This document shows, piece by piece, positions 6,054-59,900 of a stretch of 64,000 nucleotides of DNA. The notes beneath the pieces were generated by a model. The model was not told where the DNA came from and did not search any database. It saw only the letters and a program-made list of their open reading frames with translations. This DNA is from Astropecten irregularis (Eukaryota; Echinodermata; Asteroidea; Paxillosida; Astropectinidae). Each line of letters opens with the position of its first letter. The stretch's first letter is position 1. The position numbers and the translations under genes are program-made. The stretch spans positions 3,844,001-3,908,000 of the forward strand of contig OZ020263.1 in NCBI GenBank assembly GCA_963971285.1, given 5' to 3'.

Positions 6054-6209
6054 TTACCTCAAGCGACATCCAAGTAGCTCAAAACGCAGACACATTAGAC
6101 TGCTGTCGGCAGCTTTTTGCATTGCTTGGATTCTTATCAAATGCGTCGAGGGGGTCTTCTTAAAGAGATGAATAACAGTCGAACCACGGTCTACGTTACC
6201 GCTGAATCT
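6054..6209 (-). CDS. F5/8C domain, last exon with stop
   Basis: It starts RFSGNVDRGS (family F.GN.D) and ends LRFELLGC, the classic C-terminal cysteine of an F5/8C domain, followed by RLR and a stop. The usual VRI.P strand appears as LIRIQAM. The stop overlaps a donor-like GAG|GTAAAG, which leaves a small doubt about whether this is the final exon. Confidence 0.75.
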   Translation of the reverse strand, partial: RFSGNVDRGSTVIHLFKKTPSTHLIRIQAMQKAADSSLMCLRFELLGCRLR

Positions 6210-9200
6210 CTGAGAAGACAGCAAAGAGGACATCATTTATGAAATGTTATTTACAACCTGCAAAACATGTATGAGGACAGTGAAGGACAATAATATTGAA
6301 GACGGGCAAATAGATTAGGAGCGAGGTAGCAAAAAAGAGGTGTAGGTTAAGTGATAGAGATGGTGTCATTCGCATTACCTTGTTTCCGTTGGTATCCGTG
6401 AGGTATGCATATTCGTCTCGTCTTTTAGACCAAAATAACACGTTGTACTCTGTCACACGATCGAAACTTCCTTTAAATCCTTGGGTGATGATGCCGGACA
6501 CCATTTGAACATGGATGTTCACTTGGATCCAGGGGGACGAGTCACTGATGTATTAAGCAGACATTCAACAACTATAATGTGGAAGCTATTTCGATATATT
6601 CTATGGTCTATGTAAAACTAAACCCTTTTTTGATATAGATTATTGTTTAAGGAACGGGAAGACTGTTATGGATCTACGGTGTACAAAGGAATTAAAGTAT
6701 AATGTATGGAGGAACGACCAAAATTAATTAGCAATGCGTATTGCGGAGGAATAAGTCTTCAGAGCATTGTGCATGCTGTGTCACCAGCGATCGAGTGACA
6801 AAAGAATTAGGAGTTCATTCAATGGACCTAGCCTATAAAGGACCTAGCCGGTCATAAGTACACACGAGCTAAATTCAACGTCCAGTAAGAGTTGCGTTAG
6901 GTCCAGAGTTTATAGGGCGATGGACAAATCCACATGTGTTTTTTTTCTGTCTCCCTAATATATATAGAAAGCAGATGGATCGAGTCACGGGCGCTGCTTG
7001 TGCCTGTTTTGTACCCGACAAGCAAACGTGGGTTCGTCAAAAACGTTCAATTTCCTTGGTACTGAAAATCAGATAACAACCACTTAGGTTACATTTTTTT
7101 TAACAATATGAAAATATTTTTCAAAGACATGGATAGAGCCCTCTGAAGGCATTAACATAATCTTTCATAAACTTAAGCCCAACCCTGGTTGAACATTAAT
7201 AAATTTTCGTGAAGACCTAAAGCCTGTCGCACACGAACGATGAGTGCGTACGCCAGTGTTGGAGTCGAGTCCTCGAATCCTAGTATACAGAGTACTCCGA
7301 GTGCTTCAACGTCCGAGTACTGGGCCGAGTCCGAGTACCAAAGTTTGTCTCACTGAAAGACGTTTGAAATTTGGCGAAACTCTTGTTTTACAATCCTTGC
7401 AAATGCCTCTGTGCTGCTTATCTCATGAGATACTAAACCCCCGATGATCTTCACACTCCCATTGTATAATAATTTATCGGAAATCGCCAACATAATCCAC
7501 CATGAAATTTGTAACAAAAATTAAATTTGCACTGCATTTAGGCTAAATGGTCGAGTACTCCCAAAATTCGAGTACATGGAGTCGAGTCCTGAGCAAGTAT
7601 ATTTATTTTTGAGTACTTTTAATCAAGTACAGGCCGAGTATTTACATGTACTCAAGTACGAGTACCCCGTACGCCAAGGTTCACGAATGAACTTTGGCGT
7701 ACGCACATGGCGCTCGATCGTGCGTGGCAGGTTTTGAATTAGGCCTATGATGTACAGGGTCAACATGAAGTCCAACGTAACGCCAGTGAGCAGAAAGACA
7801 TAGGCCTAAGCCCCGTCTTGGCAGCTGAAATTGTCCCAACAATTATGATGCTTGATGCATAACGCTGCAACATAATTATGATACAAGTTGTAGAAAATAC
7901 AATATCTTTTATATGAATAATACCTTGAATCAGCACACCAACCTCCGTCGAAGTTCAGTCGTGCTTCTGATGCATTGAATGTGAGATGTACACTCGATGC
8001 CTTGAATTTAGTTACTGGTACGATGTTTGGGTCTTCAATGCCCATGTGTTCATACAGCGTCCAGTTATCTGTACATACATCAATGTAAAATACCGCTGCA
8101 TTAGATTGAGGAATTTCATTCGTCAAACCCTATCACGTGCTCGCGTATAAAGCTGACGGCAAACATGTTATATGCATGGCCACTCGCCTCGTTCCCAAGA
8201 GTGTTAACCCGTTATTGTACGATGTAGTCCTGCGTAGGCCTGGGTAGGCCTACAAAAAAAAGGGGGGAACGAAGTTGCAGCATGGAGTTTTCGCTGGTAC
8301 TACGCGACGATGCATGCACTCTGCAATGTGGTGTGTAGGGAACACTTAAAACAAAACTTTAGGGTATTTCTTTAGCTACGACCCGTGCGCGTGGTTCAAT
8401 GAGTTTTCAGTCCATGATTTGGACAGCAAATCCAAAGGTTCTTCCGGAAGCCTATAAACAAACAAGGGAAAATATGACTAAACTCGTGGGAAGTATGGCA
8501 CCCGAGGTTTTCTTGTCAACCAAACTCCATTTTACCACCGCACACAATCCAACAACCGTTGAAATTGATTACACAGAGGGTAGTATTCTTCATGTCAGAC
8601 ACCAAGAAATATTTGTTAAATTGTGTGTCTTCCTCATTGCCAGATCTGCCAACAGGTTAGATATGTCATTTCACTCCGAATTTTAATTAAAATGTGTATT
8701 TCCTTGCACTAACAAAATGACTGATTTTCAGATCTTCGAACGAATGCAAAATAATGACACATTTCTAAGGCAGACATTTTATCCAAAGTAACAGCAGCAA
8801 CCTTTTGCAGCAGCAGCAGCACCACCACCACCACGGCATGCTGGGACAGTAAACGAAGGCTCCTGATTGGGTAAATTCTGCGCATGAGCAAAACGTTTGT
8901 TTTTTTTCTATTTATAGAAACGATATTTACAACTTTTGCTGGAGATATAGCAGGAGACACGGAGGAAACGGGAACCAGTCTATACTCATAACTGTATGAA
9001 TTCAAGGTATTCGGGTCTGGGAATCAGACTCCGCGAACCCTGTTGCATTATGAGAGCTCATTAACATACGAGTGGAGGAATTCTTACACTTTTCATGACC
9101 GGTCCCTACATTCGAGTGGCGTAGACGTCAGGAAACAACGATAGAGAACGGGAACCAGTCTAAGTACCCATCAACTGCGATACGCAATTGATCCCGTCTT

Positions 9201-12200
9201 CTCTGTTTGTAGTTTTTGAATGATCTCTGATGAGTAATTGCCTCGTTCTGATATCAGATCACAGCCGTACAGTGTTTAACTTACCTGTCCTCTGTCCGGA
9301 AGAATCAATCGATGTTACAGTGCAGTTAGTACCTCGATCAACTATTTTTTCGGCACATTTCGTACCAAAGGTGAATCTAGTAAGGTCCGTACGAATTATG
9401 ACACATGTGCCTGCGGAAAAGAAGAATCAGGATTAGTATTACATGTACATATATTACAATATACACCCATGTTGCATTTTACCATCCAAGGCAGCGTAAT
9501 AATATTTCAAACTATCGAAGCAAATTGAATAGCGGATGGCAACATCAGGAGAAAACTGGAACTTTTAGAATATTAGTAATTTATATTTGAATACAAATAA
9601 ACATTTTATTTGGCCGAATTGTTATTCTCGTATTATTAAAACCGGCGTGGATGTATCAGCGCACTAGCAGTGGGTATATAGCCATGTGTGCTGGTCAATT
9701 TTACAGTATTGTTCAAGCCACAGACACCAACCCCACCCTCAAAGACAGTCATTCAAACTCATTAATAGGCAAACGATACACGGCAGGGGTAGGTTCAATG
9801 AGTGTAAGGAGAAGAGCAAAATCATACATGTGACCGTGGAGAAACAGACCAAGAGAATAGTGATAGTTTCACCATAAAGAAAACAGGTTGATGTACATGT
9901 AGTTAATTAGAAAGAGTCATCTTGGTTTAAATCAAAGTGCTAAAACACGGAAAAGGTACAGGATGCCCTCTCGATGGTTTAAAGAGTTTTAAATAGTATA
10001 TTAAGTCTCAAATATTTTTAGGAGGAGTATATTTCTTAAGCTCAGAAAACTTTAAGAGGCATGATTTGGAGGGTCGAGGTCGAGGGATAGTGAGGGGAGA
10101 GGGGTGGGGAGAGGAAAAGGCAGACAGCAGTCCACGCCGGAGGGTTAGAATCCCACCGCGACGCCCCCAATATAGGCACGTTCACACACACCAAAAAACG
10201 CGAGTTTTGGGGTTGCGCTCCAAATCGCGACCCAAATACACGGGTTTACACTTCGGAGGCCATCTTAGCTTTTGATCGCAACTTCAAAAGGAGGCACTTT
10301 CACGCATGCGCACTTTTCGAAGTGTAAACCCGTGTATAGTTGTGTCCACACCGGCAAAAAAGCGCGACCCAAATCGCACTGGTACGATTTCTATCTAACT
10401 GCCTACGCAGTGAAGCGTGAAGTTGGCATACACGGGTTTACACTTCGGCGGCCATCTTAGCTTTTGATCGCAACTTCAAAACGAGGCACTGTCACGCATG
10501 CGCACATTTCGAAGTGTATTCATCCCGTGCTAAACTCGCAGGCCCGCCTTGCATGATGGGATATAAAAACAGGTATTTTTTGGTGCACCGTTCATACAAC
10601 AAAAAATCGCGACTATTAGTAAAAAGACGCACTATTAGTGCGATTTGAATCGCCAAATTGCGCTCCACATCGCGATTATTATGATTATAAAATAAAATAG
10701 TACCTTCGTTGTTCAGAAATACGCACAACAGGCATGGCGCATTAGGAGTGAGTATGTGCAACTTTTGTTTGTATATTATAGTCGTCCGTCTCACTCATGA
10801 AAAACAATATATCGACCGCCATATGTACTTGATATCCTTGGATAACTTTTTAAATTAAGTTATTGATTTGAAATTTCGTAAACTCTAAATATAGATGCAC
10901 ATATGTTGCACTTTCATAATAACCTGGACTGCTAACGGATTGATTTGGTGGCTGCCATGTAAAACTCCGAAAGTTTTCTTTTTAAGCCCTTAGAATAATC
11001 AGGGATTCTGCATGACATAATGAATTTCGAGAAATGTCCTGTTCTGAATACAAAACCAATCAGCCTCTATACTCAAGACATTGTGAATTTACGAAATCAG
11101 GGATTTACAATACGAGATTTCAGGATACCAATCCCGAAATCTAACTTCAAGCTAAGGCCCAGAACTCTCTCCTCTAAGCATTTTGCAAGTTGTTTGAAGA
11201 AAATCGGCCCAGGCGTTCCGAAGTTAGAGCAATTTAAAGCTGGAGTTCATAGGGAATCCCTTGTTGCCTAGCAACCGAAATTGATGTTAAGCACTTTAGC
11301 CATTTTTGCATAATTCATTGTTTTAAAACCCAATGCACCACAAAAGTATAATTTTGCAGATATGTTCATCTATAATGTATATTTTTTTGTTACAGGAGTA
11401 GCACAACCATCAAGAGTCTCCAAGCCAAAAAAAAAGCCTGAAAGCTAGTCGGTTTATTTTTTTTTTTTTAGAGTGATAGGATACGTACCAGCTTCGGGGA
11501 AGCAATCATCTAGGTTGCACATATCGTTCTCGACCGCTCCGCCCAAGCACGATTCAGTTTCACAGCTGCAAGCCCTGGTCCTCTGCCTCTCACCACCACC
11601 GCAGCTGGCGCTACAGGCAGACCAGCTACCCCATTGTCCCCACCCACACGGAACTGTAGAGACCGAAAAAGAGCAAGGGATTACCGAAAAACTACACAGT
11701 TTGTATGTTAATACCTTCAGGCTTGTTCCTCTACTGACCTGAGCCTCGAGCTGTAGGAATGCTGCAGACTTTCTAAACATACGAGACGGGTTGGGGCGGT
11801 GCCGAAGCTGTTCTCTCAACCAGGGAGAGATAAAAAAAAATGTACGTTGCAGAGTATAATACAGAAAAACAGAGTAAGGTCAAATTGTTAGCGTATACGC
11901 ATTTCCAGCCTCAACAAAAATTCGTCGCCGACCCCACGAACTGACACCCTCTGCATCAAATGTGTGCATTTTTTTCGAATTTCATTTTATTATCAATTTT
12001 TTTGGACAATTTGAGTGTATATCTGCCTGTATACCAATTTACAAGCCTTAAATTTTACCAAAACTTTGCTAATTATGCATCAATTTAAAGCTAAACAATT
12101 ACCCAAGTCATTTCACAATATGTTTATTTTAAATACCCAGATACACACGCATAGTACCAGGTCTGCTTATGATTTTCATATTCCTTATGTACGCCTGTCT

Positions 12201-15200
12201 AAATCTTATAATTCGGTATCCTCTCAGGGTCCTAAATTTTGGAATTCTTTATGTAATAACCTTAAGTCAATTAATAGTTTGTCTGCTTTCAAAAAACAAC
12301 TTAAATCTTGGCTTGGGGATAAGTATCAACAAGAATGATTTTAAATACTTTGTTCGTCCCCTCTCTTTATAATATGTAATTATTAAGATGGGACTTGCTT
12401 GCCTCTCGTTTTCTGTCATACATGTTTGTCCTGTGTCTATTTGTATGTAGCATTAATGGAACTTAAATATTGTGTATTATTTACTTCTTTAGTTATTAAA
12501 TTATGTAAATATCATCTTCAAGAATATGTCAGTACACAATTCTATTAAGGGGGTCCCCAGTCCACAAGCTCTGCTTCTTGGGGACCTCCTCCACTTATTG
12601 TTAGTTAATTCCCCCACTTAAAAGTATTTTACAATCATGCTTTTCTATTCACTGTGAATTAACTTACATGAGTGGAAATAAAATGAACTGAACTGAAATT
12701 AGACTAATTATTAGCGTCACTTTTCGAGTTTTCATCGATATTCGGTTTCACAAACTGACACGCAAGTCATTTTCCCATAGTAAACAGTATGGACACTCAT
12801 TGTGTGCGTCTGCTAAAAATCGGTTTCACAAACTGACACGCACCTTAGTGTCAGTTTGTGAAAACGATGCTATCCATGTTATACGAACAGCAGCCGATTT
12901 CACGAAACTTCAAATGTTGCGTACGCAACATTTCGTTGCGTAACTTACGCAACATTTTCCTGCCCGTTATGCACAAGTTATGCCCGTTTCACAAAACTTA
13001 CGCAACATTTGTACGTTGCGTAAGTTACGCAATGTTTCGTGAAATCGGCAGCAGTGCGCCTATGCTTTTATGCGCGCATGTGTCACTTCGTGGAGCCGAA
13101 TTAATAACGTTTATATAATCGTTCGTTTTCACAAACTGACACGCATGTTTTAGGCTTAATTACTAGTTAATTAATACACGTAAACAACTTAAAATACGTC
13201 AACTAGTAGAATGAATAAACATATTGTTGAGAGGGAATCAAAAAAGGTCGTAACATTTAGATTTTATTTGAAATATACCGGTTTTAAAAAGTCGCGAACT
13301 TCAAACGGCCATATCTCAAAATATAGATACTTTTTCTTGTTAGGTGGGTGTCAGTTCGTGGTGACGGCGGTTAATGTTAGAGCGATGTGGCACACAATTT
13401 CGACTGGTACTCGTAGCTGTGACTTAACAATGTTGCAGCTGGGGAACTGCCATATAGAATTCCAGGAACGCGATACACGTACGTTAGCCGTACACGATGG
13501 ACAAATCGTCGGCAAAACATAAACAATTACTGTATTAGGCGAATTCGTCTGTCTGTTGAAAACATAAGTTTTTTCCGAATTATTCACGAAATGTATTCGA
13601 CGGAGCATAACATGATTTATAATTCACAAAAATGTTTTCGAATTCACGAAATGTTTTGGATAACACGAAATGTTTTAGATTTGAGGGCATTCATGTATAA
13701 TTTTCATGTATAACACGAAATGATTTCGAGGCTTTTCCGCTTTGCTCGGAAAAGGAACAAAACAACGGGGACAGGGTGCTTTTTAGCTGGCCGCGCGGTC
13801 TCGTATGAAACTCAGTGCTTGTTGTGTTGACGTTCTGCGAGTTATCACGTCAATACACGCGGGTCCACGCCCGTTTTGTTATTTTTGAGAGCGTGAAATG
13901 ACACCAAAATGCCGTGGTGTACTGCTGTACAGTACTGCTGCGGTAAAAAGTGCAATTTAGAACTTCACTTGCTTAAGAAATAAACTAGCAGCTCAAAAGT
14001 TATGCCACAAATTCAACACTTTGTGTCCAAGCGTGCGTTTTGTTCGGGGAATAATAAAATGAGGGTTGGGAGACCTTTTCACGCCGACGCCCTGTACAGT
14101 ATACTGTGTGGCTTTCTGCATGTGACGCATTTAACTTCATGATGTATTTTAAATACAGTAAACCTTTAAACTCTGTAAATGACAATTATTATTAAACAAA
14201 TGATTATAAAATAAAATAGTACCTTCGTTGTTCAGAAATACGCATAACAGGCATGGCGCAATATGAGTGAGTAGGTGCAACTTTTGTTTGTATATATTAT
14301 AGCCGTCCGTCTCACTCATGAAAAACAATATATCGTGAACTCGACCGCCATATGTACTTTTCATGCTACTTCGCTACGCTCATCCGCATGAAAAACAGTT
14401 TTGTGGGAAGGACAGCCACAAGGAAACACAGGTAAAACAGGGCTTGTAGATCATGGGAGTGTGGTCGGGACACTACAAGCTGAATGGGAAAAGCCATTCA
14501 TTTTGGAGGCTAAATTATTTTCTTCAGCGTGAGTTTATTTCCAATTACACCAAATGATAAACTAAAGTTAAGGGTGAACAAAGCAAACTGACCGGAGCGG
14601 GATTGCAACCTGAGACTTCAAACCACCCATAGCCGCTATATCCCAAAGATCATCATTTTAAGATAACATCATTCAGTTTGACCCTTTCTTCTTATAACTT
14701 AAGTTGAATAAAAGTGAGTTCTCATTCGTAGAGAATGCATTGTGTTGAAAGCTATTCGGTTTATTATTTTTGTTTTGGAGTGATAGGATACGTACCAGCT
14801 TCGGGTAAGCAACCATCTGGGTTGCACATATCGTTCTCGACCGCTCCGCCCAAGCACGATTCAGTTTCACAGCTGCAAGCCCTGGTCCTCTGCCTCTCAC
14901 CACCACCGCAGCTGGCGCTACAGGCAGACCAGCTACCCCATTGTCCCCACCCACACGGAACTGTAGAGACCGAAAAAGAGCAAGGGATTACCGAAAAACT
15001 ACACAGTTTGTATGTTAATACCTTCAGGCTTGTTCCTCTACTGACCTGAGCCTCGAGCTGTAGGAATGCTGCAGACTTTCTAAACATACGAGACGGGTTG
15101 GGGCGGTGCCGAAGCTGTTCTCTCAACCAGGGAGAGATAAAAAAAAATGTACGTTGCAGAGTATAATACAGAAAAACAGAGTAAGGTTAAATTGTTAGCG

Positions 15201-18200
15201 TATACGCATTTCCAGCCTCAACAAAAATTCGTCGCCGACCCCACGAACTGACACCCTCTGCATCAAATGTGTGCATTTTTTTCGAATTTCATTTTATTAT
15301 CAATTTTTTTGGACAATTTGAGTGTATATCTGCCTGTATACCAATTTACAAGCCTTAAATTTTACCAAAACTTTGCTAATTATGCATCAATTTAAAGCTA
15401 AACAATTACCCAAGTCATTTCACAATATGTTTATTTTAAATACCCAGATACACACGCATAGTACCAGGTCTGCTTATGATTTTCATATTCCTTATGTACG
15501 CCTGTCTAAATCTTATAATTCGGTATCCTCTCAGGGTCCTAAATTTTGGAATTCTTTATGTAATAACCTTAAGTCAATTAATAGTTTGTCTGCTTTCAAA
15601 AAACAACTTAAATCTTGGCTTGGGGATAAGTATCAACAAGAATGATTTTAAATACTTTGTTCGTCCCCTCTCTTTATAATATGTAATTATTAAGATAGGA
15701 CTTGCTTGCCTCTCGTTTTCTGTCATACATGTTTGTCCTGTGTCTATTTGTATGTAGCATTAATGGAACTTAAATATTGTGTATTATTTACTTCTTTAGT
15801 TATTAAATTATGTAAATATCATCTTCAAGAATATGTCAGTACACAATTCTATTAAGGGGGTCCCAGTCCACAAGCTCTGCTTCTTGGGGACCTCCTCCAC
15901 TTATTGTTAGTTAATTCCCCCACTTAAAAGTATTTTACAATCATGCTTTTCTATTCACTGTGAATTAACTTACATGAGTGGAAATAAAATGAACTGAACT
16001 GAAATTAGACTAATTATTAGCGTCACTTTTCGAGTTTTCATCGATATTCGGTTTCACAAACTGACACGCAAGTCATTTTCCCATAGTAAACAGTATGGAC
16101 ACTCATTGTGTGCGTCTGCTAAAAATCGGTTTCACAAACTGACACGCACCTCAGTGTCAGTTTGTGAAAACGATGCTATCCATGTTATACGAACAGTGCG
16201 CCTATGCTTTTATGCGCGCATTATGTCACTTCGTGGAGCCGAATTAATAACGTTTATATAATCGTTCGTTTTCACAAACTGACACGCATGTTTTAGGCTT
16301 AATTACTAGTTAATTAATACACGTAAACAACTTAAAATACGTCAACTAGTAGAATGAATAAACATATTGTTGAGAGGGAATCAAAAAAGGTCGTAACATT
16401 TAGATTTTATTTGAAATATACCGGTTTTAAAAAGTCGCGAACTTCAAACGGCCATATCTCAAAATATAGATACTTTTTCTTGTTAGGTGGGTGTCAGTTC
16501 GTGGTGACGGCGGTTAATGTTAGAGCGATGTGGCACACAATTTCGACTGGTACTCGTAGCTGTGACTTAACAATGTTGCAGTTGGGGAACTGCCATATAG
16601 AATTCCAGGAACGCGATACACGTACGTTAGCCGTACACGATGGACAAATCGTCGGCAAAACATAAACAACTACTGTATTAGGCGAATTCGTCTGTCTGTT
16701 GAAAACATAATTTTTTTCCGAATTATTCACGAAATGTATTCGACGGAGCAAAAAATGATTTATAATTCACAAAAATGTTTTCGAATTCACGAAATGTTTT
16801 GGATAACACGAAATGTTTTAGATTTGAGGGCATTCATGTATGATTTTCATGTATAACACGAAATGATTTCGAGGCTTTTCCGCTTCACTCGGAAAGGAAC
16901 AAAACAACGGGGACAGGGTGCTTTTTAGCTGGCCGCGCGGTCTCGTATGAAACTCAGTGCTTGTTGTGTTGACGTTCTGCGAGTTATCACGTCAATACAC
17001 GCGGGTCCACGCCCGTTTTGTTATTTTTGAGAGCGTGAAATGACACCAAAATGACGTGGTGTACTGCTGTACTGCTGCGGCAAAAGTGCAATTTAGAACT
17101 TCACTTGCTTAAGAAATAAACTAGCAGCTCAAAAATTATGCCACAAATTCAACACTTTGTGTCCAAGCGTGCGTTTTGTTCGGGGAATAATAAATTGAGG
17201 GTTTGGAGACCTTTTCACGCCGACGCCCTGTACAGTATACTGTGTGGCTTTCTGCATGTGACGCATTTAACATCATATGTGTTTTGATTACAGTAAACCT
17301 TTAAATTCTGTAAATGACAATTATTATTAAACAAATGATTATAAAATAAAATAGTACCTTCGTTGTTCAGAAATACGCATAACAGGCATGGCGCAATAGG
17401 AGTGAGTAGGTGCAACTTTTGTTTGTATATATTATAGCCGTCCGTCTCATTCATGAAAAACAATATATCGTGAACTCGACCGCCATATGTACTTTTCATG
17501 CTACTTCGCTACGCTCATCCGCATGAAAAACAGTTTTGTGTGAAGGACAGCCACAAGGAAACACAGGTAAAACAGGGCTTGTAGATCATGGGAGTGTGGT
17601 CGGGACACTACAAGCTGAATGGGAAAAGCCATTCATTTTGGAGGCTAAATTATTTTCTTCAGCGTGAGTTTATTTCCAATTACACCAAATGATAAACTAA
17701 AGTTAAGGGTGAACAAAGCAAACTGACCGGAGCGGGATTGCAACCTGAGACTTCAAACCACCCATAGCCGCTATATCCCAAAGATCATCATTTTAAGATA
17801 ACATCATTCAGTTTGACCCTTTCTTCTTATAACTTAAGTTGAATAAAAGTGAGTTCTCATTCGTAGAGAATGCATTGTGTTGAAAGCTATTCAGTTTATT
17901 ATTTTTGTTTTGGAGTGATAGGATACGTACCAGCTTCGGGTAAGCAACCATCTGGGTTGCACATATCGTTCTCGACCGCTCCGCCCAAGCACGATTCAGT
18001 TTCACAGCTGCAAGCCCTGGTCCTCTGCCTCTCACCACCACCGCAGCTGGCGCTACAGGCAGACCAGCTACCCCATTGTCCCCACCCACACGGAACTGTA
18101 AAGACCGAAAAAGAGCAAGGGATTACCGAAAAACTACACAGTTTGTATGTTAATACCTTCAGGCTCTACTACTGACCTGAGCCTCGAGCTGTAGGAATGC

Positions 18201-21200
18201 TGCAGACTTTCTAAACATACGAGACGGGTTGGGGCGGTGCCGAAGCTGTTCTCCCAACCAGGGAGAGATAACAAAAAAATGTACGTTGCAGAGTATAATA
18301 CAGAAAAACAGAGTAAGGTCAAATTGTTAGCGTATACGCATTTCCAGCCTCAACAAAAATTCGTCGCCGACCCCACGAACTGACACCCTCTGCATCAAAT
18401 GTGTGCATTTTTTTCGAATTTCATTTTATTATCCATTTGGACAATTTGAGTGTATATCTGCCTGTATACCAATTTACAAGCCTTAATTTTTACCAAAACT
18501 TAGCTAATTAGACTAATTATTAGCGTCACTTTTCGAGTTTTCACCGATATTCGGTTTCACAAACTGACACGCAAGTCATTTTCCCATAGTAAACAGTATG
18601 GACACTCATTGTGTGCGTCTGCTAAAAATCGGTTTCACAAACTGACACGCACCTCAGTGTCAGTTTGTGAAAACGATGCTATCCATGTTATACGAACAGT
18701 GCGCCTATGCTTTTATGCGCGCATTATGTCACTTCGTGGAGCCGAATTAATAACGTTTATATAATCGTTCGTTTTCACAAACTGACACGCATGTTTTAGG
18801 CTTAATTACTAGTTAATTAATACACGTAAACAACTTAAAATACGTCAACTAGTAGAATGAATAAACATATTGTTGAGAGGGAATCAAAAAAGGTCGTAAC
18901 ATTTAGATTTTATTTGAAATATACCGGTTTTAAAAAATCGCGAACTTCAAACGGCCATATCTCAAAATATAGATACTTTTTCTTGTTAGGTGGGTGTCAG
19001 TTCATGGTGACGGCGGTTAATGTTAGAGCGATGTGGCACACAATTTCGACTGGTACTCGTAGCTGTGACTTAACAATGTTGCAGCTGGGGAACTGCCATA
19101 TAGAATTCCAGGAACGCGATACACGTACGTTAGCCGTACAATTTAGAACTTCACTTGCTTAAGAAATAAACTAGCAGCTCAAAAATTATGCCACAAATTC
19201 AACACTTCGTGTCCAAGCGTGCGATTTGTTCAGGGAATAATAAAATGAGGGTTTGGGGACCTTTTCACGCCGACGCCCTAATAGTATACTGTGTGGCGTT
19301 CTGCATGTGACGCATTTAACTTCATATGTATTTTGATTACAGTAAACCTTTAAAATCTATAAATGACAATTATTATTAAACAAATTATCATAAAATAAAA
19401 TAGTACCTTCGTTGTTCAGAAATACGCATAACAGGCATGGCGCAATATGAGTGAGTAGGTGCAACTTTTGTTTATATATTATAGTCGTCCGTCTCACTCA
19501 TGAAAAACAATATATCGACCGCCATATGTACTTGATATCCTTGGATAACTTTTTAAAATTAAGTTATTGATTTGAAATTTCGTAAACTCTAAATATAGAT
19601 GCACATATGTTGCACTTTCATAATAACCTGGACTGCTAACGGATTGAATTGGTGGCTGCCATGTAAAACTCCGAAAGTTTGCTTTTCAAGCCCTTAGAAT
19701 AATCAGGGATTCTGCATGACATAATGAATTTGGAGAAATGTCCTGATATAAATGCCTCTATACTCAAGACATTGGGAATTTACGAAATCAGGCTTGAGGC
19801 TAGGCTTTGGATTTATTTTGCGACCGCCAACTGACGGGCCGACTGACGGGCCGACTGACGGGTGACTGACGGGCCGACTGACGGGCCGCCTGACGGGCCG
19901 ACTGACGGGCCGACTGACGGGCGACGGGCGAAGAACATGCCAGAAAATGTCATAACGTATATGCACATACCAGATCGTCCTAAATTGGGGACCCCGAAGG
20001 TGATGATCGTGTCAATTCGACACCCAATCGTGCACTCAATCGAGACAATCTTATTGCAACGTATACGGTCGTATCTGATCGGGACCGTTGTGACAGATGT
20101 TGTCTCATGAAATTGACCAATCCTGGCCATCATCTCATCGAAGTGCACCAAGTCATAGCAGAACGTACCAACTCACATCACCTCGTAACCAAACATGAAA
20201 TATGAGAGAAATTCCACGCTTAGCCAGGAATGGCCAATCGTCACTTTCATAATGGATCGTACGACAATGACAACCTTTTCCAACAACCAATACATTGTCT
20301 TTGGCAATTTTGGACAAAATGAGCATGAAAAACAAAAACAAAAAACAATGGAATTGTTGTCCTGCGAAATTGGATGGAAATTAAAATCCCAATTTCTACT
20401 ATAAAGAGTATGCTTTCAGTAATATTCATTTTTAGCAATGTTACATTGCAGTATAACCCTGTGACTGTATTTTATAGCTCTTACGGTCACACTTGAAGAT
20501 ACAGCACAGGATTGGTAACATACCCAAACAGAAACGTTCACAGATTTACGTATTACTTTAAGGGTATGAAGGTGGTGCTGGTAGAAACATACCGTTAAAA
20601 TATTTTCCGGCTGAAATGTTATATTTATCCAGAAATTAGTAAAACAAAGACCGAAAACGGTTTTGATCTCGGGGTTAAGTTCAAAACCATTCTTTATGTT
20701 TTATACGAAAAATTGAGTCGTTTTTTCGCCCGCTATTTTCTTGTGACTCATTTGGCCGATTGAGCTCAAATTTTCGCAGGCGTGTTATTTCATGTAGGCC
20801 TACATGGGTGTACATGTTGGATTTGAAAAATTGTACGTGCTGCTCTGTGATCTTTTCCCATGATGTATTATACCTTTAAACTCTGTATTGAGGACCTTAA
20901 CTTCGGATATTATACATGTAATATTTGACTCCAATGCCAATATGTTTTCCAATAATCATAGACAGTTAAGTTGAATCATAATCAGACATAGACATTAGAC
21001 ATTCCCATAGGTTTGTGCAGCGATTGTCAGATAAAGTAAAACCATTTCGTGCCTAGTCCAAGAAAACCAGCTGTGAATGGCAATTCATGGTACAACATCA
21101 TGTTAATGTATAATTTTATATAACGTAATTTACATTTGATGTACAAACGTTTTGGAAACATTTATTAAAAATTCAGACATTCGGTGTACAAAGCTATGGG

Positions 21201-21712
21201 ACGGTCCAATGTGTAGACAAATCAGACATTCTCTGTCATTTTCACCTTATTTCAATTCATTTATTATTATCTCCGGATAACAACAGTACAGACAACTTGG
21301 AAAAAGGCCTACATTTAAGACGTTAACAACAGCAACAAATTGAAAACATCCCTGAGGATTGCCTAAAAGCGAACCAAATTAGTGAAATCACTATCAAGAG
21401 GCTATACTGTATGTATATAAGGGCAGCGCACACTCGGTTCACAGATATTGGTCTTATACAGCCCGGACCGTCGTACGGTCTGGAATTATTTGTGGCTTCG
21501 GGTAGATAGCTGTGACTCTCGTATACGGCGGTCTTTAGTGTAATAAAGTCAAACTCACAACACTTACCTTTGGGAGTCTTCTTGCAATCACACGGGCATG
21601 CCTTCACTGGTACACCCTCCCTTTCCCCGCAGTATCCGGCATCTTGCCCACGAATGGTTTGTACGGCAATGGTGCAGAACACCAACAATTTGACAATTTG
21701 AAACAACTTCAT
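6054..21712 (-). CDS. Secreted modular protein: signal peptide, 3x TSP1, orphan module, F5/8C (discoidin) domain
   Basis: This gene model joins eight minus-strand exons: 21712-21568, 18095-17931, 14960-14796, 11653-11489, 9410-9285, 8068-7924, 6544-6379 and 6209-6054. Every junction has AG/GT ends and the phases agree: 1-1-1-1-1, then 2, then 0. With all three TSP1 exons it encodes 410 residues; with one it would encode 300. The product starts with a hydrophobic signal peptide, so it is probably extracellular. TSP1 repeats usually bind matrix, glycosaminoglycan or receptor partners, and F5/8C domains bind sugars or lipids. The pairing suggests an adhesive, lectin-like or guidance protein, but the ligand is inferred, not seen. 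The last codons sit on a donor-like GAG|GTAAAG, so the gene could extend past the stop at 6054-6056. However, the F5/8C domain is complete there, which favours a true end. I do not recognise a named orthologue. Confidence 0.72.
6379..6544 (-). CDS. F5/8C domain, middle exon
   Basis: It continues the discoidin domain with SPWIQVNI (family W.QVDL), VSGIITQGF (V.GI.TQG) and VTEYNVLFW (V..Y.V..S). The split serine codon AG|T joins exactly to the previous exon. The phase-0 donor is AAG|GTAATG. Confidence 0.8.
7222..7731. mobile_element. Inverted-repeat element with a second element nested inside
   Basis: The outer arms CCTGTCGCACACGAACGATG and its partner (CGATCGTGCGTGGCAGG) with TGCGTACGCCA enclose an inner element. 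The inner one is built from GAGTCGAGTCCTCG and GTACTCAAGTACGAGTACCC repeats (about 7261-7665). Confidence 0.75.
7924..8068 (-). CDS. F5/8C domain, first exon
   Basis: This exon encodes the N-terminal third of a discoidin/F5/8 type C domain: GIEDPNIVPVTKFKASS, then SEARLNF and GGWCADS. Those are the usual GMESG.I.D..ITASS, ARLN and GWCA positions of the family. It enters in phase 1 (G|AT) and leaves in phase 2 (AG|). Confidence 0.8.
9285..9410 (-). CDS. 42-codon orphan exon between TSP1 and F5/8C
   Basis: The exon has a good acceptor (TTTTCCGCAG) and donor (GACAG|GTAAG) and is open in only one frame. That frame is phase 1-1 and fits both neighbours. Its product contains three cysteines (TCVII, TKCAEK, TNCTVTS) and one N-glycosylation sequon (NCT). 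I do not recognise the fold. It may be a linker or part of a small disulphide-bonded module. Confidence 0.6.
10236..10337. mobile_element. ACACGGGTTTACACTTCG MITE, copy 1
   Basis: A 102-base element with ends TACACGGGTTTACACTTCG and CGAAGTGTAAACCCGTGTA around TTTTGATCGCAACTTCAAAA. Confidence 0.87.
10429..10521. mobile_element. ACACGGGTTTACACTTCG MITE, copy 2
   Basis: A second direct copy lies 90 bases further on. Its right end is cut short at CGAAGTGTATT. Confidence 0.82.
10681..11105. repeat. Proximal flank repeat of the TSP1 array
   Basis: This block closely matches 19387-19795 on the far side of the array, and its first part recurs at 14206-14365 and 17336-17500. It probably supplied the homology for unequal exchange. 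A diverged copy lies at 22640-23510. Confidence 0.8.
11489..11653 (-). CDS. TSP1 exon, copy A (3'-most in the transcript)
   Basis: This is a third 165-base phase 1-1 TSP1 exon with the same W/C framework. It differs from copies B and C near its end (CNLDDCFPEA instead of CNPDGCLPEA). Acceptor CTCTACAG and donor GCTG|GTACGT are intact. It lies 3307 bases from copy B. Confidence 0.82.
11990..12705 (+). mobile_element. 5'-truncated LINE 3' end (unit A)
   Basis: The open frame 12015-12338 ends in the hallmark C terminus of a non-LTR reverse transcriptase ORF2: PKSFHNMFI, HSTRSAYDFHIP, GPKFWNSLCNNLKS, FKKQLKSWL. A 3' UTR follows and ends in a GAACT GAACT short-repeat tail at about 12690-12702, typical of CR1/L2-like elements. 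The element is dead. Confidence 0.78.
12747..12863. repeat. CACAAACTGACACGCA repeat cluster (unit A)
   Basis: CACAAACTGACACGCA occurs twice directly and once inverted here, and again at 13128. The cluster recurs at 16050-16170 and 18555-18675. Together with ACGAACTGACACCC near 11936 and its inverse near 13346, this suggests an older inverted-repeat transposon into which the LINE landed. Confidence 0.6.
12894..13048. mobile_element. 155-bp inverted-repeat element, unit A only
   Basis: The element runs from CCGATTTCACGAAAC to GTTTCGTGAAATCGG, with inner palindromes built on TTGCGTAAGTTACGCAA. Units B and C read GAACAGTGCG across the same point, so the empty site is known. CAGCAG stands on both sides of the insert. 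Confidence 0.82.
14796..14960 (-). CDS. TSP1 exon, copy B
   Basis: This copy has the same 165-base phase 1-1 exon, splice sites and protein as copy C, including the ending CNPDGCLPEA. It lies 3135 bases from copy C. The symmetric phase means that adding or skipping this exon never breaks the reading frame. Confidence 0.82.
15297..16010 (+). mobile_element. 5'-truncated LINE 3' end (unit B)
   Basis: This is the unit B copy of the same LINE remnant, with an identical 107-residue frame at 15322-15645 and the same GAACT tail. It arose by the segmental duplication, not by a second insertion. Confidence 0.78.
17931..18095 (-). CDS. TSP1 exon, copy C (5'-most in the transcript)
   Basis: This is a 55-codon, phase 1-1 exon encoding one thrombospondin type 1 repeat. 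It has the WGQWGSWSACSASCGGG core with three tryptophans (C-mannosylation-type WxxW) and a CSASCG motif that fits the CxxS/TCG O-fucose site. An RQRTRAC strand follows, and it ends CNPDGCLPEA. The eight cysteines are the six canonical ones plus two. The acceptor (CTTTACAG) and donor (GCTG|GTACGT) are intact. Confidence 0.82.
18430..18515 (+). mobile_element. LINE stub left in unit C
   Basis: Only the first bases of the LINE remnant survive, up to GCTAATTA, and then the flank after the GAACT tail follows directly. The join shares CTAATTA/AATTAG, so the internal part was deleted at a microhomology. Confidence 0.7.
19387..19795. repeat. Distal flank repeat of the TSP1 array
   Basis: It is a direct-orientation match to 10681-11105, so the array is bracketed by copies of one dispersed repeat. 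Confidence 0.8.
19829..19925. repeat. 12-bp minisatellite (GGGCCGACTGAC)
   Basis: About eight units of a GC-rich 12-mer, with small variants, lie directly next to the distal flank repeat of the TSP1 array. Confidence 0.9.
20495..20880 (+). mobile_element. MITE family 2, full copy
   Basis: It starts GATACAGCACAGGATTGGTA and ends CCCATGATGTATTATACCTTT, with a GATCTCGGGGTTAAG stem. It shares the family 1 motifs AGAAACATACCGTTAAAAT and TATCCAGAAATTAGTAAAAC but has different outer ends. Confidence 0.8.
21568..21712 (-). CDS. Exon 1: start codon, signal peptide and cysteine-rich N terminus
   Basis: The exon encodes 48 residues. The first roughly 22 (MKLFQIVKLLVFCTIAVQTI) form a basic-hydrophobic signal peptide, with likely cleavage near RG-QD. 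A short segment with four cysteines (one in GYCGER, three in ACPCDC) follows. The exon ends AAAG|GTAAGTG, a strong donor in phase 1. An in-frame ATG lies further upstream, but the one at 21712 sits directly before the signal peptide and is preferred. Confidence 0.75.
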
Positions 21713-23230: not shown

Positions 23231-24235
23231 TTAAGCTCCACTGCGCACGTGGCAAATTCAAAATGCACACGTGGTCGTTTCCACTATGACTGACGTGTGC
23301 TTCATACGCGCATGCTCTCATGTCAGACTTAAGTCAGCGTCACACATAATCACGGCTATGATTGGACAGAGAGGAATGGGGCGGAGCTAATAGGTCGATC
23401 ATGACAAACAACATATCGTGGCCTCGACCGTCAGAGATGTACATGATATCCATGGATAACTTTTTAATTAAGTTATTGATTTGCAATTTCATAAACTTTC
23501 GGTATATGCACCTCCTGCCTCCTGGGCTTCCATTTGTGACCATTTTGGATGCAATTGGGTGAGAAAGTGTGTCTATTTCAGCCGCTTTGCAGAGGGATGT
23601 TTTTTGAAAATGGCTTCTTTGAGTGGAGTGATCCATACCTGGTTTTAGGGGTGGTCAGCTGAGAATGAGAATATCTCAAAAATTCAATGGTCACCCTACC
23701 ATAAAATGAAAAGAAAATGAAAGGTGACATATTCATCATCATTTCTCTGTGCAACTTGAACAGCTGTGAGAGTTCTGTACTATTTGTAAATGATTTTTGA
23801 AGTTGGAGGATTTAGCACTGTTGTCTATGGGAGTTTACCTGTGGTGCACCCATTACGGCCAACTTTGCTATACTGCGCCCTCTGTTGGCGGGTCGTGACG
23901 GAACTACACACCATCGAAATCTTGCCTCGGTATCCGGTTCTGGCTTCGGAACAGTGAATAATTAATCAAAGATTCATAATGACGTTGAGCCACATATCAT
24001 ATCAAGCCAAAAACCGCAACGGACGCGTTTTAGCAAGAACCATGAAAAAAATGTCAAAACTGCGACATGGGCAGGCATTTATAAAGGTCTTCAATCTAAA
24101 AGTACAACTCCAACATATAGATTTCTTGAAGAGAACAATGACTAACCTGGCGAAATGACCCTCAATCAAGTTTGATTTTTTAATAACCCTCCCCTTGCTT
24201 ATTTCTCAAGGATCATAGGACAATTATTATCATTG

Positions 24236-46346: not shown

Positions 46347-46615
46347 TTAAGAACTTGGGCAAGTGTTGAGAATATATCGGTTGACTTCGCGTGGGTAGTG
46401 GCTGGGATACATGAATCGTTTCTCGGCATCGTCGAAGAGATAGTAGATGTTACCGGTGAACAGGTACACGTTGGGCGTAGTCTGGCCCTCGTTGTTGATG
46501 TTGGGATTGATGGCGGTGACGCGGAGGTTACGCACCGGCATGCCGTCCAAGTTCAGGTTCCAGATTCGGAGGCGATTCTGCAGAGTACTTTCTCGGAATC
46601 GGTAGACAAAGAAAC
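46347..46615 (-). CDS. Secreted MMP exon 10 (hemopexin end, stop)
   Basis: It opens FFVYRFRE and runs through an unusual asparagine-rich stretch to [11 protein letters not shown] and [16 protein letters not shown]. The last cysteine closes the hemopexin ring and the chain ends three residues later. Confidence 0.9.
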
Positions 46616-49600
46616 CTGATGGAGGGTTGGGATTAATTGAAAGAAGATCACGAAATATTATGTAACCGACTTAGACAAGTTGGGCGTCAGTCGATTAGGT
46701 ACGCAAGTGGTCATATTAGAGTTGCATACATAACAATGGGAGACTTTGGAAAACCGGTTCTCAAAAGTCTCCCATTACGTTGGGCCAGGTTACCCTTAAT
46801 ACATGTACATGTACATAACTGAAATGCAATGAACCATATTAGGTCAATTCCTGCACAACAAGCCACGGCGGAAGGAGTCACTTTTCCGTTCCTTCCTTCT
46901 CCTGAATTAGACATTATTTTCGGTTCCTTTTTCGTCCCATCGAATCTTCGTTCACCAATCCATAATGACCAGCTGTAACTACGGTTAAGACCATCCTTCT
47001 CAATTATTTTGGGTGAGTTTGGAAATTATTGAAATGTATCTAACTAGGCCTACATATAAAGAAACTGTGCTTAGCTTGAAATGTATTTTCGAGACATAAT
47101 TCACAACCGGAACGTTTTTCGGAACATAAGCCGCGGCTTATACGTTGATTCTTGTCTATGTAAAGAAAGTTTTAAGTGCGGCCGGGCCCGCTTCAAACGT
47201 CGAACTTCTGCCGTGTCTAAATTCCATTCTTTGCAATCGAGAAGAAAAGCGGCGGAAGTTCGGCAGTTGCTTCAAACGCCGGTTTTCTGTTAACCTAACG
47301 CCAATTTCAACATGGCGGACCAGGAGAGAGTTATGATATTGCTATATATTCTTATTGCGAGTAGGCGGCGCTCTCTCTCTCATTTTAAATCGGCACTGGA
47401 ATTCTGACTTGGGATGTTTCAATTGAATTAGACACGGTAACAAATCGACGTAGACGTGCCGTTCTTCTGCCGTTAAAAGCGGCACCACCTGTCGAACTTT
47501 CGACAGAAAGCCGGCAGTTGCTTGAAATTTCTGCAGTGTCTGGTACAAATCTTGGGCCATAATTTGAATTAGACAAGGCAGAAGTTCCACTCACGGTTTG
47601 AAGCGGGCCTTAATAAATACAAAGGTACATGGTCATTGGCAATTCCTGTGCAGGTATTGTCTCCATTTACATGCTGTCGCAGAGGAAGACTAAAGCAGAG
47701 TGTAGGCCTACACTGTCAACATTCTAGGTAACATGTTGCCCAGGTATGGCAGCACATAACATGACTTTGGGCTCTGTGTACACTTACATGTACATGTACA
47801 TGTAGTTACATTTGACCGCCAACATCTTAACGAGATGGTGCTGAAACAATGAGTGAAAATGAGCATTGGCTAATTTTCCGATTCAGTTGCAATATCTTGC
47901 ATTGCAGCTTTCTTTTTGCTTTTGTTCTGTTTGCATGTGACATCCCACAGAGGCGTAATAAAAACAAAACAGATATTCTGGCATTGAAACGAATTGATTC
48001 GACAAGCTGAACATCACTGTGTTGTAATCCTCTAAATATTTCTGTATGGACATTGAATTGACATCACTAAAAGAACCGGTAGGCTGCTTACCTTTAAAGA
48101 AGTACGTGTAGCCGTCGGTGGGGGAGACATACCCAGCTTGCACGTTGCACGGCAGACCGGGCCATTGATCACGGATGGCCATCCGACCCATGTACTCACG
48201 ATTCTGGTACATCCACACGAAGCACCTCTGCATAGGCGACATGGCAACAATATTCAGGAATTAGTTTGGTTCATCATGACATGATCGTATACATCTAGGC
48301 TTGGAATCCAGGCTATAGGTGCACACTACATGAGGATGCCGCTTAAGCAATAATCTGAAAGCACTTTCATTCCTATCTCAGGTAACCTTTAAAGACAATG
48401 AAATGTAGGCCTCTATTCTGTCTTGAGAGACAATAGTATGCGTTAGTTTGTTTAAGTTAAATCAGTAACATCATACGATACGGCTAAACAGACAGATATG
48501 AGAGCGGCACTGCTTCTGACATAGCAGGGAAATGCATCTGCAGCCAGTCGTAGAACAGGGGAGAGCTCTATAAATTATGTAGTGGTTGGTGTACGTACCT
48601 TGAAGATGTATGTGACGTTGCCTTGTGTCACGGCGGCTTGGATGAAGTTGGGAAGGCCCTGCCATTCTGCGTTGATTATCGCGTATGTATGAGGGTAGTC
48701 ATCCAAACGCCACACATACCTACCTGTAGGAACCACAATAGCACAATAAAATCAGTCAAATATGATATAATAAACATCTACATTCTCTTCCAATAATGTA
48801 AAGAGTTTCTGCTTACGACTTCGATCAGTCGCAAACGGTTTTCGATCTGGGAAAAGTTATACCATCAGCTGAATTAGGCCAACACCAGAACAAACTAAAC
48901 TCGAACCATAGGCCCTACGCCTACAATGCCAGTGAAATTTTTGGCGGTCGTGACGAAAAACGGTTTCAATGTTGGACCCTAAAATGGGCGTTTTTCATTG
49001 GTTGAGATCTGTCAAACGTCACTAGTAAAACTATGACGTTATACTCAAACCGGTAGGTGCGCCTTCATTGGGCAAAGAGAAAATACACGTAGTCATGTTT
49101 ATGTTGCTTACCTATGAAACCGTACGTGCGTCCGTCGGCAGTATTCGCCACCGCGTCAAATGTGCCATTTCTCAAACACGCCGCCAGAGGGGGTGGTTGC
49201 TGAGGGGCAGGGGGCGCCGCTGGTGTTGTTGTGACGTCACCTGGAGAATTAAAAGACGCTGAGAGTTAAAAACGAATCATGGCTCTCAACATGAGAAACT
49301 CTTCTACCAAATACCAGTAACTCGTGCAACAATCTTACAATTTGAGATCGTGTTGATGTTGTCAATTCAAAACATAGGTTCATGATCAAAAAGCCAAAGT
49401 TGGCTGACCCAACTTTCATTACTGATCATGTCAATAACGTACAGAGCATACTTCTAACTTCAAATGGTTCGCTTTGTGGTAAGGCCATTTATTGGTATCA
49501 CGCTTTATAATGACAATTCTTGCCATACCAAATTTAATCTTATTTCTAGTGCCTTTGGCTTTCCTTAACTGAATTAAGAGATGCACATAATCAAGACACT

Positions 49601-52600
49601 CACCAGTACTACCTCCTTCGCCTGACGTAGATACCTTTCCTGTTAAGCAAAAAAATGCAAAACAAAAACCGGTTTATTTAAGGAAAAACTATCGGCTGAT
49701 TTAATTATACGAACAAGCTCGGATATGGACTGGATGAAGAAAACGGCTACCAGACTAAGTTTGAATCCAAATCTCGGTTTGATTGCACTACTTCGAATGT
49801 AGGATGGATGCACTGTGAATAATTGTAATGAGGCTGGGGATTGTTGTGCGCATATCCTTCTGTAATATGACAAAATCCACTCTCACCTATACAGGGTGTC
49901 CCAGAAAAAAACGCAACACTGTGTCGGGACCCATTATATTAAAATTAAACTGTTTATCACTTTTAGATTCAGATATGTAATACAGCCATGTCTTGGCTAT
50001 CACCATGTAGAATTTAAGCATATTGGGGCCGAAATTGGCGAAAATTTGACCAATTGAAAGAGTACTCTTTAAACTTAACAAATTTGCAAGGATAACACGC
50101 ATGGTAGTCATATACATGTACACACAATGTGAATGAAAGAAAGATAAAAATCGGGTTTTGAGGTTGGATGATTCAGTCTTAGTTTTTTCACTAAATTTTA
50201 GTCCAATTTTGCTCAAATTCTACATGGCAATAGCCGAGACATGGCTGTATAACATATCTGAATCTTGAAGTGATAAACAGTTTAATTTTCATATATAGTT
50301 CTCAACACAAGTGTTGCTGGTTTTTTTTGGACACCCTGTATAGTGAAGAGAGGTATAACTTCTAATGTAAAGAGGAAACTTGGTGACGAGAAAAACATCT
50401 TGGAAATGCTTAGACCGCCGTGTAAGACGGCCATGTTGATAAAGAAAAGACTGCCTCGTTTTTAGTGTGGAGGTTTCCCTGACTGACGTCATTTTCTTTT
50501 CGATTGCAGCCTCAGAAGAACATGGCTTGGTAAATGTATACTCACTTCCGTACAGACTCCTAATTCCCTCTTTGTCGTCTTCGCCCAGTTGGAAGTTGGC
50601 CTGGTACCCACGGTAGTACGGGTACATCAGTGCAGATATGTCTTCCGAATGGAAAAGGCCCAGACTATGACCGAACTCATGTGCAGCAACTTGGAAGAGG
50701 TTGGTCCCTGTATGTTCGCAGGAAAAGAAATGTAAAGATTAAAAATTAACATTTGCTTACCGTGAAATTGCGTCTAAGACTGTGTACTAAATTCTCTGGC
50801 TGCGGCTGCAAATTACACACGCCCCTCTGGCAGCCACTAGCCAATGACTGCAGCCGTTTCCATAGACTTGTGTGTTATTTGCAGCCGCAGCCAGATATGA
50901 GGGACACGGCCTTTTTCTTTAATCATTCCGATTTGAAAGGGTTGTTTGAAGAAACCGGAAGTGCGACGAAATAAAAAAGTGCGAAAGTACGAACGATTCT
51001 GACATGGTGTTTCTGCAAACCGATCCACATATAGGCTACCAAATTGTCAACATACAAAGCGTAATCTTTCTTAATTACTAAGAAAGTACATGTACATATT
51101 TAAAAATAAAATGTCATCAAATAAATAACTTTGGCAATATTGACAGCTCATCTGAAAAGATGATTACAGTATTAACTTGATATAGTTGATAGTCTGTAAC
51201 TGTAACACGGTGTATAACTTTGCCACTCCCAGGCATTCTACCAAGAATGTTATTTGGGGCACTGCAAGGGAGAGAGAAAGAATAAAGGATTTTCACTTAC
51301 CGGCAAACGTTCCGATAGTCCACTGCTCGTCACCGTCGAAATGTGCGTCGCTCCTGAGGGGCAGGTAAGCGTGTGCCAGTACCCCGCCCGGCCCGTCAAA
51401 CGGTGCTCCGTCCCCGTGGTCACGAGACGCGAAGAGAATGACGATGTCGGCTTGCGGATCATAAACTTCTTGGAATGACAGTGGGGTGACATCGGCCCAT
51501 ACCTGGGGAGAGAGAGGGGGAGTGGGTAAGAACATGAAGACTTGTATGATATGATGGAGGGTTTTGCAGGATTCAAGGAACTTACGGCGACTTCAGACGA
51601 TCGCTTTCAAGAAAGTTCCTGCACGACAAACTTGGCTTTCCTCACCAATTGAATAAAATCATCAAATCACTACAAGGGAAACTGACTGGCTTAATCTTTT
51701 ATCATTGAAATGTGCCACAAAGAAAAATTTACTGGAGCCAGATTTTGACCTGCGAAACCCTGAATGCATGTACAATACCGGAGCTATAGCCTACCAACCG
51801 AGCTATCCAGCCATACAAAATGGGTCAAGTCGTACCCAGGTTAAGTCTTATCCCAAGAAAAGATACCCAAGTCAGCTCATACACAGGTCATCTCGTGCCC
51901 AAGTTAACTCGTACCAGGTGAACTTGGGTACGAGTTAACCAGGGTACATAAGAGATGATCCCAAATCCAGCACTACATGTATAATGTTGGTGTCCATAGT
52001 AACTCGTTTAAGTGACTTTAAGTTAAATACAAGTTTGTGAAGGCATTTTTGTCATGATTATCAAATTAGTTTCTCTTTTCTTCCATAGGTTACGAACTAC
52101 TCTACATGTATAGGCCTATACCCCCGGCTCAACCTACCTGGAAGGCGTCCCGCACCGTCATCCGGACGTCATCTGCCGTCAAGAACGGAGGGAAGTCTTT
52201 GATCCAGTAAGTCAGGTCAGTCTGCTGGAACTTGGTGGATGCGACTCGGTAGTCCTGGGGACTACGGTCGGCCATGCCACACCGAGGTGAATCGATGGCC
52301 GCCAGTAAGAGACTATCAGCAACGCCTGCAGAGGAAATCAAAAGTTCTCAAGTCTTTAGAGGGAGTTTTTCACACAAGACAAATTTTATAGGCAACTTAA
52401 AAATGACAGCCAACCAAGAACAATGCGTCAATAGAGGAAACGTCCGCAGCATATACTAGAATTATGTGAAAATCGGAAAGAGAATGTTATTGTTGGTCTT
52501 CTTGAAGTTTGCCATAACAGAACTGGTTGCATTAAAACTGCCCCGTCTACAGTGACGAAATGGGTCATCTCGTACCCAAAATCTCATGTGACACTGGCCC

Positions 52601-58890: not shown

Positions 58891-59234
58891 AATGTACAGA
58901 GTAGACTGGTTCCCATTGTCTCCAGACGTCTACGTACATACATTTAATGTAGGCTGGACTCGTAGAGGTAATTCTAATGTATTTCTTTATTATTCCGCAC
59001 GTGCAAAGCCCCATGGGAAAAGTCACAGAAACCGTGACTTTTTTTGTACGTACAGAAATTTGGGCTGAAAATTGCTCGTTTTTGTTGACATCCGACTAAA
59101 TTCAATCAGTTTCCCTTGTGGTTATTTGATGATTAACTGAGATGTTTTTTAGAAGCATATTCTTCAGTTGGGGAGATACTGTTGTTAGAACCAATTGTAA
59201 ATGGTTTGTTTCCTCTGATTTCTTTCATTTGCAG

Positions 59235-59900
59235 CCACTGTGTTTTTTTGTGACTGTAGACGGTACCAGGGAGTGCTTTAAGATGCACATCAAAATTGGT
59301 GAGGATCGTGAAACGAGAGGTGGCCCCACGGTCCAGCGGTTTGGGCCAATTTCGACGACGTTGTACAGCCTCCTCATCGTGGTAATTGAAATCCTGACGC
59401 AGACCGTGGTGTTCTCGCTGAGACATTTTAATTCCACCAAACAATATCCGTTCTCCAGCACGACCCTCATCGCCTTTACGGAACTGATCAAATTTCTGTT
59501 CTGCTTCTTTGCGTTTTGCGGCCAGCACAGACGCTTGCGCTTCATGCCGTCGCCAGCGTTTCTAATCCCGGCCTTCTTCTTCATTGCGGCCAGCAATGTC
59601 TTCTTCTACTGTGTGAAATTTGTGGCCCCGCCCACCTGGAACGTGCTCGTCCAGACGCGTACGGTGTTCAGCGCCTTGGGAGGTTACGTCATCTTCGGAC
59701 GGCCGATCGGGATGAGGCAGTGGCTGGCGATGGTGCCGCTGCTGTTGGCAGCATGCCTTGCTGTTTGGTTCTGCCCGGGAACAGAGGTAGCCAGCCCCAT
59801 GAATCACGATGAGAACAGTAACGAATCCCAGAGTCTGTGGTGGATGCTGGTGATGCTGTTTGGTGCAGCCTGCTCGGCATTCTCAGTTGGCAGTTCTGAG
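59235..59900 (+). CDS. SLC35A-type transporter, first coding exon
   Basis: The acceptor TTTCATTTGCAG ends at 59234, coding starts at 59283 and the donor is GAG|GTAAGC. It carries the first six hydrophobic segments. An acidic, asparagine-rich loop (NHDENSNESQ) lies before the sixth. Confidence 0.85.

Follow-up and report, generated by a model that had tools for sequence, protein, structure and literature searches.

How did three near-identical TSP1 exons come to stand in tandem inside one gene of the sea star Astropecten irregularis, and what protein would that gene encode? The question is raised by a window of 64,000 nucleotides (assembly GCA_963971285.1, contig OZ020263.1, forward-strand positions 3,844,001 to 3,908,000), in which positions are counted from the first letter. 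An original prediction, made from the letters, had proposed a young triplication of a phase-symmetric exon. An insertion site that is occupied in two units and empty in the third, and two conflicting groupings of the units, are both present in the sequence. From these, the array probably grew from two to three units by unequal crossing-over after a first duplication, which would give the gene a three-module protein.

Gene model and TSP1 exons

The three TSP1 exons, each of 165 nt, were found exactly where they had been predicted, and all are on the minus strand. Each has an AG acceptor and a GT donor and is of phase 1 on entry and exit, so that the predicted intact splice sites and phase 1-1 symmetry were confirmed. 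Exon 1 has a phase 1 end and the small exon beyond the array a phase 1 start, so that any number of TSP1 exons, including zero, keeps the frame, and the proposal that a copy can be added or skipped without a frameshift holds. The exons of units 2 and 3 are identical, and that of unit 1 has three differences in 165 sites, all of them near its 3' end and each altering an amino acid. Introns were as similar between units as exons, again as predicted, and exon and flanking intron are repeated head to tail within an open gene model, which makes the array an intragenic tandem duplication of a phase-symmetric exon.

The minus-strand gene model, which runs from 21712 to 6054, is complete, with 410 aa in an open frame and no inner stop. 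Its order is a signal-peptide-like exon (an assessment by eye), three TSP1 exons, a small exon, and three exons that encode an F5/8C domain and end in the stop codon. Pfam recognized TSP_1 in three stretches of the joined protein (1.3e-23), which for the Pfam runs contained small slips at the joins; the open reading frame (ORF) of unit 2 scored 34.5 bits with PF00090 (curated cut-off 21.6), and the joined protein scored 41.5 bits with PF00754 (cut-off 28.2) over profile positions 3-126 of 127. By sequence, the best-scoring solved relative of the TSP1 part was thrombospondin-1, and those of the F5/8C part were retinoschisin and neuropilin-1. The gene model probably encodes a small secreted protein, probably adhesive, in which all three TSP1 exons would be spliced in series ahead of the F5/8C domain.

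A 401-bp exon query gave five matches in the same genome. The window copies matched at 96-100%; the remaining two were a 76% match on C10 and a 120-bp piece at 93% at C28:8.02 Mb. The latter locus (C28:8022722-8022946; L007 4723-4947) combines part of the TSP1 exon with a fragment of the X segment, the sequence ahead of unit 2. It is 93-98% similar, has lost 1 base, and lies about 4.2 Mb away as a dispersed, apparently dead copy.

Structure of the units and growth of the array

The predicted unit length of 3.1-3.3 kb stands in part; unit 3 is shorter, as it has neither the retroelement copy (~620 bp) nor a block of ~450 bp (13494-13950). Identity was 99.2% over 1452 bp between units 1 and 2, 97.9% over 2333 bp between 13052-15382 and 16194-18510, and 96.2% over 638 bp between units 1 and 3, in each case far beyond chance. 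Units 1 and 2 differ by 22 substitutions, of which seven fall in the first 75 bp, leaving ~0.5% elsewhere. Over ~1.66 kb, 30 substitutions separate units 2 and 3 and 36 separate units 1 and 3 (37 BLAST mismatches), or near 2%. In the left edge and the X flank, units 2 and 3 differ at 2 of ~625 sites (0.3%). The putative older pair is thus separated by about 2%, and the middle unit, read as a mosaic, by 0.3-0.5% from its likely sources. Private markers are present in each unit, those of unit 2 including 11881, 13439, and 14059.

Over most of their length, units 1 and 2 group together. An inverted-repeat element of ~650 bp is present in all units and is split in units 1 and 2 by a 622-bp insertion. 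Both element halves lie side by side without the insertion at 27 of 27 other places (among the 40 of 1391 candidates that were scored; five of the 27 belong to one C16 array), and the empty site aligned as in unit 3 at all six other host-element loci compared, which were chosen by hand. Ten other copies of the insert were listed, all of which end at query positions 942-944 and start at 321, 389, 424, 476, 517, or 527; because a common 3' end with varying 5' ends is the pattern of 5'-truncated retroelements, the insert was read as LINE-like. The retroelement ORF gave no Pfam match. Units 1 and 2 also share derived bases at 11995, 12052, 12067, and 12735, as polarized by eight of 11 retrieved loci of the host element (11995, seven C and one G; 12052, seven T and one gap; 12067, eight A; 12735, eight C). 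Unit 3 is derived at 13291 (eight of eight loci) and at 13358 (all six loci covering that site), and unit 1 at 12846 (eight of eight), whereas 13080 is ambiguous.

At the left edge the grouping is a different one. Unit 2 agrees with unit 3, and is unlike unit 1, at seven sites between 11448 and 11512, and an X flank of ~410 bp is common to units 2 and 3 with one site different (767 and 758 bits), the flank of unit 1 being another sequence. Because unit 2 groups with unit 3 at this edge and with unit 1 elsewhere, it is read as a mosaic. The change of pattern along the units was supported by a Fisher test in which polarity was not used (p=0.0017); the concentration of 7 of the 22 differences between units 1 and 2 within 75 bp has a nominal p=6e-7, for a region picked after inspection. 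The outgroups for this edge were the C10 TSP1 exon (76%) and the C28:8.02 Mb fragment. Both give the base of unit 1 as ancestral at 11470 and 11506, so units 2 and 3 are derived there. Damage beside an insertion was considered as a source of the edge differences of unit 1 and was set aside, since unit 1 is ancestral at these two sites.

A history of two steps would account for both groupings. A single unit, its TSP1 exon symmetric in phase (1-1), would have become two, a left unit P and a right unit Q, after which P would have gained the retroelement copy and Q would have lost the ~450-bp block; that the block was lost from unit 3, and not gained by the others, is the direction that we favor. 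Later mispairing of P with Q and an exchange in or just beside the exon would have produced the order P - Q/P mosaic - Q, which is exactly the outcome expected if the right unit of a two-unit ancestor exchanged once with the left. The switch would fall in the interval 11506-11995, which covers exon sequence and the 342 bp beyond it. The original claim of one triplication is thus retained as regards the duplicated TSP1 exon, and the markers point to two steps, so that a single event of equal units is probably not the explanation. The long direct repeats should make further change of copy number easy, and the array may be unstable.

Several observations weigh against this history. Only two of the seven left-edge sites are cleanly polarized. 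Unit 1 is backed at 11459 and 11465 by the 8.02-Mb fragment alone, the two outgroups conflict at 11499, and at 11512 the fragment sides with units 2 and 3, so that unit 1 may be the changed copy. The same may be true at 11448, where the outgroup rows side with units 2 and 3 outside the well-aligned part, and the C10 row is hardly alignable to the left of 11466. Between 13950 and 14335 divergence is higher in all pairs, and five to six bases are private to unit 2, for which the simple model gives no account. Finally, the same picture would arise had the left edge of unit 2 been altered by gene conversion. Were the units older duplicates held alike by conversion, with that edge as a conversion tract, their identity would overstate the youth of the array, and conversion tracts would match both the brief switch close to the exon and the bases private to unit 2 at 13950-14335. 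We regard this as unlikely, though the most credible of the alternatives, because the retroelement insertion, the ~450-bp block, and the 164-bp insertion all escaped homogenization, and because one crossover explains the X flank joining units 2 and 3 with no further steps. Crossing-over is accordingly preferred as the probable cause.

It is less probable still that haplotypes of a two-unit locus were partly joined into three units during assembly. A false expansion between haplotypes could also give the order P - Q/P - Q, and the divergence of 0.3-0.5% is below the 0.96% heterozygosity reported for a sea star, Asterias amurensis, in PMC11090083; but every unit, unit 2 included, has private markers, and the assembly is chromosome-scale, with 475.7 Mb in 168 contigs. 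The predicted protein is subject to another doubt, namely that the TSP1 exons are real but are used singly or skipped. Phase 1-1 permits in-frame joining of any subset, yet the splice signals are alike (donors the same over the 8 bases compared, acceptors different at 1 base in 12) and TSP1 modules are usually arranged in series, which makes alternative use a poor prospect, slightly behind the assembly artefact. An exclusive choice between the exons of units 2 and 3 would leave the protein unchanged, because both are identical. Growth of the array by unequal crossing-over, with the exons used in series, is the reading retained in the features listed below.

Table 1. Coordinates of the array, its flanking segments, and the exons of the gene model in the window.
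Feature	Positions	Strand	Description
Unit 1 (P type)	11439-14745		TSP1 exon, inverted-repeat element, retroelement copy, right end, then X segment preceding unit 2
Unit 2 (putative mosaic)	14746-17880		Left edge resembles unit 3, remainder resembles unit 1
Unit 3 (Q type)	17881-19517		Without retroelement copy and ~450 bp
Insertion of 164 bp	12888-13052		Unit 1 only; inverted-repeat ends seen in sequence
Retroelement copy (LINE-like, 3' part)	12076-12697	+	Unit 1; insertion shared with unit 2 (~15383-16003); site unoccupied in unit 3
Left flanking copy: unit right end and Y segment	10681-11101		Direct repeat of 19384-19792, 93.6% over 422 aligned columns
Right flanking copy: unit right end and Y segment	19384-19792		Direct repeat of 10681-11101
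Segment upstream of exon 1	23272-23501		Adjoins Y in the paralogous C23 locus (L024 1354-1576 by 1501-1717)
Exon 1	21568-21712	-	Start codon, signal-peptide-like N-terminus, short Cys-rich stretch; donor phase 1; basis, ORF and boundaries
TSP1 exon, unit 3	17931-18095	-	First in transcript; Pfam TSP_1 on joined protein
TSP1 exon, unit 2	14796-14960	-	Middle, in mosaic unit; Pfam TSP_1 2.3e-08
TSP1 exon, unit 1	11489-11653	-	Last in transcript; 3 coding differences from other two
Small exon	9285-9410	-	Phase 1-1, Cys-containing linker; relatives near other F5/8C exons
F5/8C exon 1 of 3	7924-8068	-	Pfam F5_F8_type_C 1.8e-10 on joined protein
F5/8C exon 2 of 3	6379-6544	-	Alone 14.7 bits, below cut-off
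F5/8C exon 3 of 3	6054-6209	-	Includes stop codon; joined-protein match

Flanking segments and relatives of exon 1

The array is bordered on both sides by a further repeat, the Y segment, which is found in the window at 10795-11101 and 19517-19792. Exon 1 was matched from residue 1 at 15 other places in the genome. The donor was read in three of these relatives: GTAAGT is at the same position in L076 and L079, and lies two codons later, in the same phase, in L080. Among 40 candidates scored, a Y match was found up to 14 kb upstream at 11 of the 15 exon 1 places, within ~2.2 kb at seven of them; of the remaining four, three had Y only downstream (13-23 kb) and one had none listed. The recurrence of exon 1 with Y upstream looks as if one start cassette were common to several genes. 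That Y is itself a mobile element was set aside, as among the candidates scored it recurs upstream of most exon 1 relatives.

At the C23 locus (L024, L080), matches to 23272-23497, 19512-19730, and 20493-20870 are consecutive upstream of exon 1. In the window, unlike the C23 locus, the segments 19512-19730 and 20493-20870 are inside intron 1. This arrangement may reflect remnants of tandem gene copies or of a captured cassette. The F5/8C relatives are represented in the comparison by a single locus, C28:6.11 Mb (L082), at which the small exon was matched with an E value of 3.6e-08 and the F5/8C exon with 60% identity. There, a Sushi ORF (Pfam 9.1e-09) lies 5' of the small exon, in the place where the window gene has TSP1. 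Tentatively, the gene might be a young chimera in which an F5/8C gene was joined to a promoter and signal-peptide cassette and to a TSP1 exon. Leftovers of upstream sequence would then remain in the introns and flank the array as direct repeats, and TSP1 copies might range from zero upward in populations, always in frame; we hold this to be possible but doubtful.

Elsewhere in the window, a 12-bp tandem repeat of 8.2 copies lies in intron 1 (19826-19922). A matrix metalloproteinase gene is present on the minus strand at 46350-53050 (Peptidase_M10 1e-19, hemopexin 1.4e-05), with an ORF containing the stretch PRCGMAD, which we take to be a motif of such enzymes. A nucleotide-sugar transporter is located on the plus strand at 59133-59957 (Pfam Nuc_sug_transp 7.3e-08), and an ORF at 61366-61803, for which there was no match, may continue it. 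In the genome at large, bindin was matched at one place (7e-31 over 67 profile positions), in keeping with an echinoderm; an amphioxus source, considered first, was set aside, and the GFP family and the mNeonGreen protein gave no match, a negative that carries no weight alone.

Comparison with known arrays

Two other tandem arrays were met in loci fetched for other reasons. At C15:17332118-17336719 (L027, L028), three Y matches lie ~2.2 kb apart upstream of an exon 1 relative, with neighboring units 99.2-99.6% identical, and at C16:10783131-10793276 (L065-L068) the inverted-repeat element occurs five times, ~2.4 kb apart at ~98%, in a separate array. As both turned up by chance, young tandem arrays are not unique to the window gene. 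A narrow search of the open-access literature, which covered titles and abstract openings, found no account of this gene and none of an array of TSP1 exons in starfish.

Tandem duplication of symmetric class 1-1 module exons is a known pattern of exon shuffling in extracellular proteins, and the window array resembles it in having one domain per exon with the flanking introns copied along. It differs from the usual cases in that its steps are still readable from the insertions and the mosaic middle copy. The event is of a known kind and the process ordinary; the record is unusually clear. Repetition of extracellular modules is common and its steps are usually erased, so that this array offers a good test of growth by unequal exchange.

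Another close likeness is to the kringle IV type 2 (KIV-2) repeats of LPA, which encodes human apolipoprotein(a). There also, multi-kb tandem units inside a gene carry the exons of one extracellular module, and copy number sets the number of modules. The window gene differs in having three units, with TSP1 in place of the kringle, and is known here from one assembly. Should individuals still differ in copy number, the array would be an invertebrate equivalent of human KIV-2, with direct consequences for the secreted protein.
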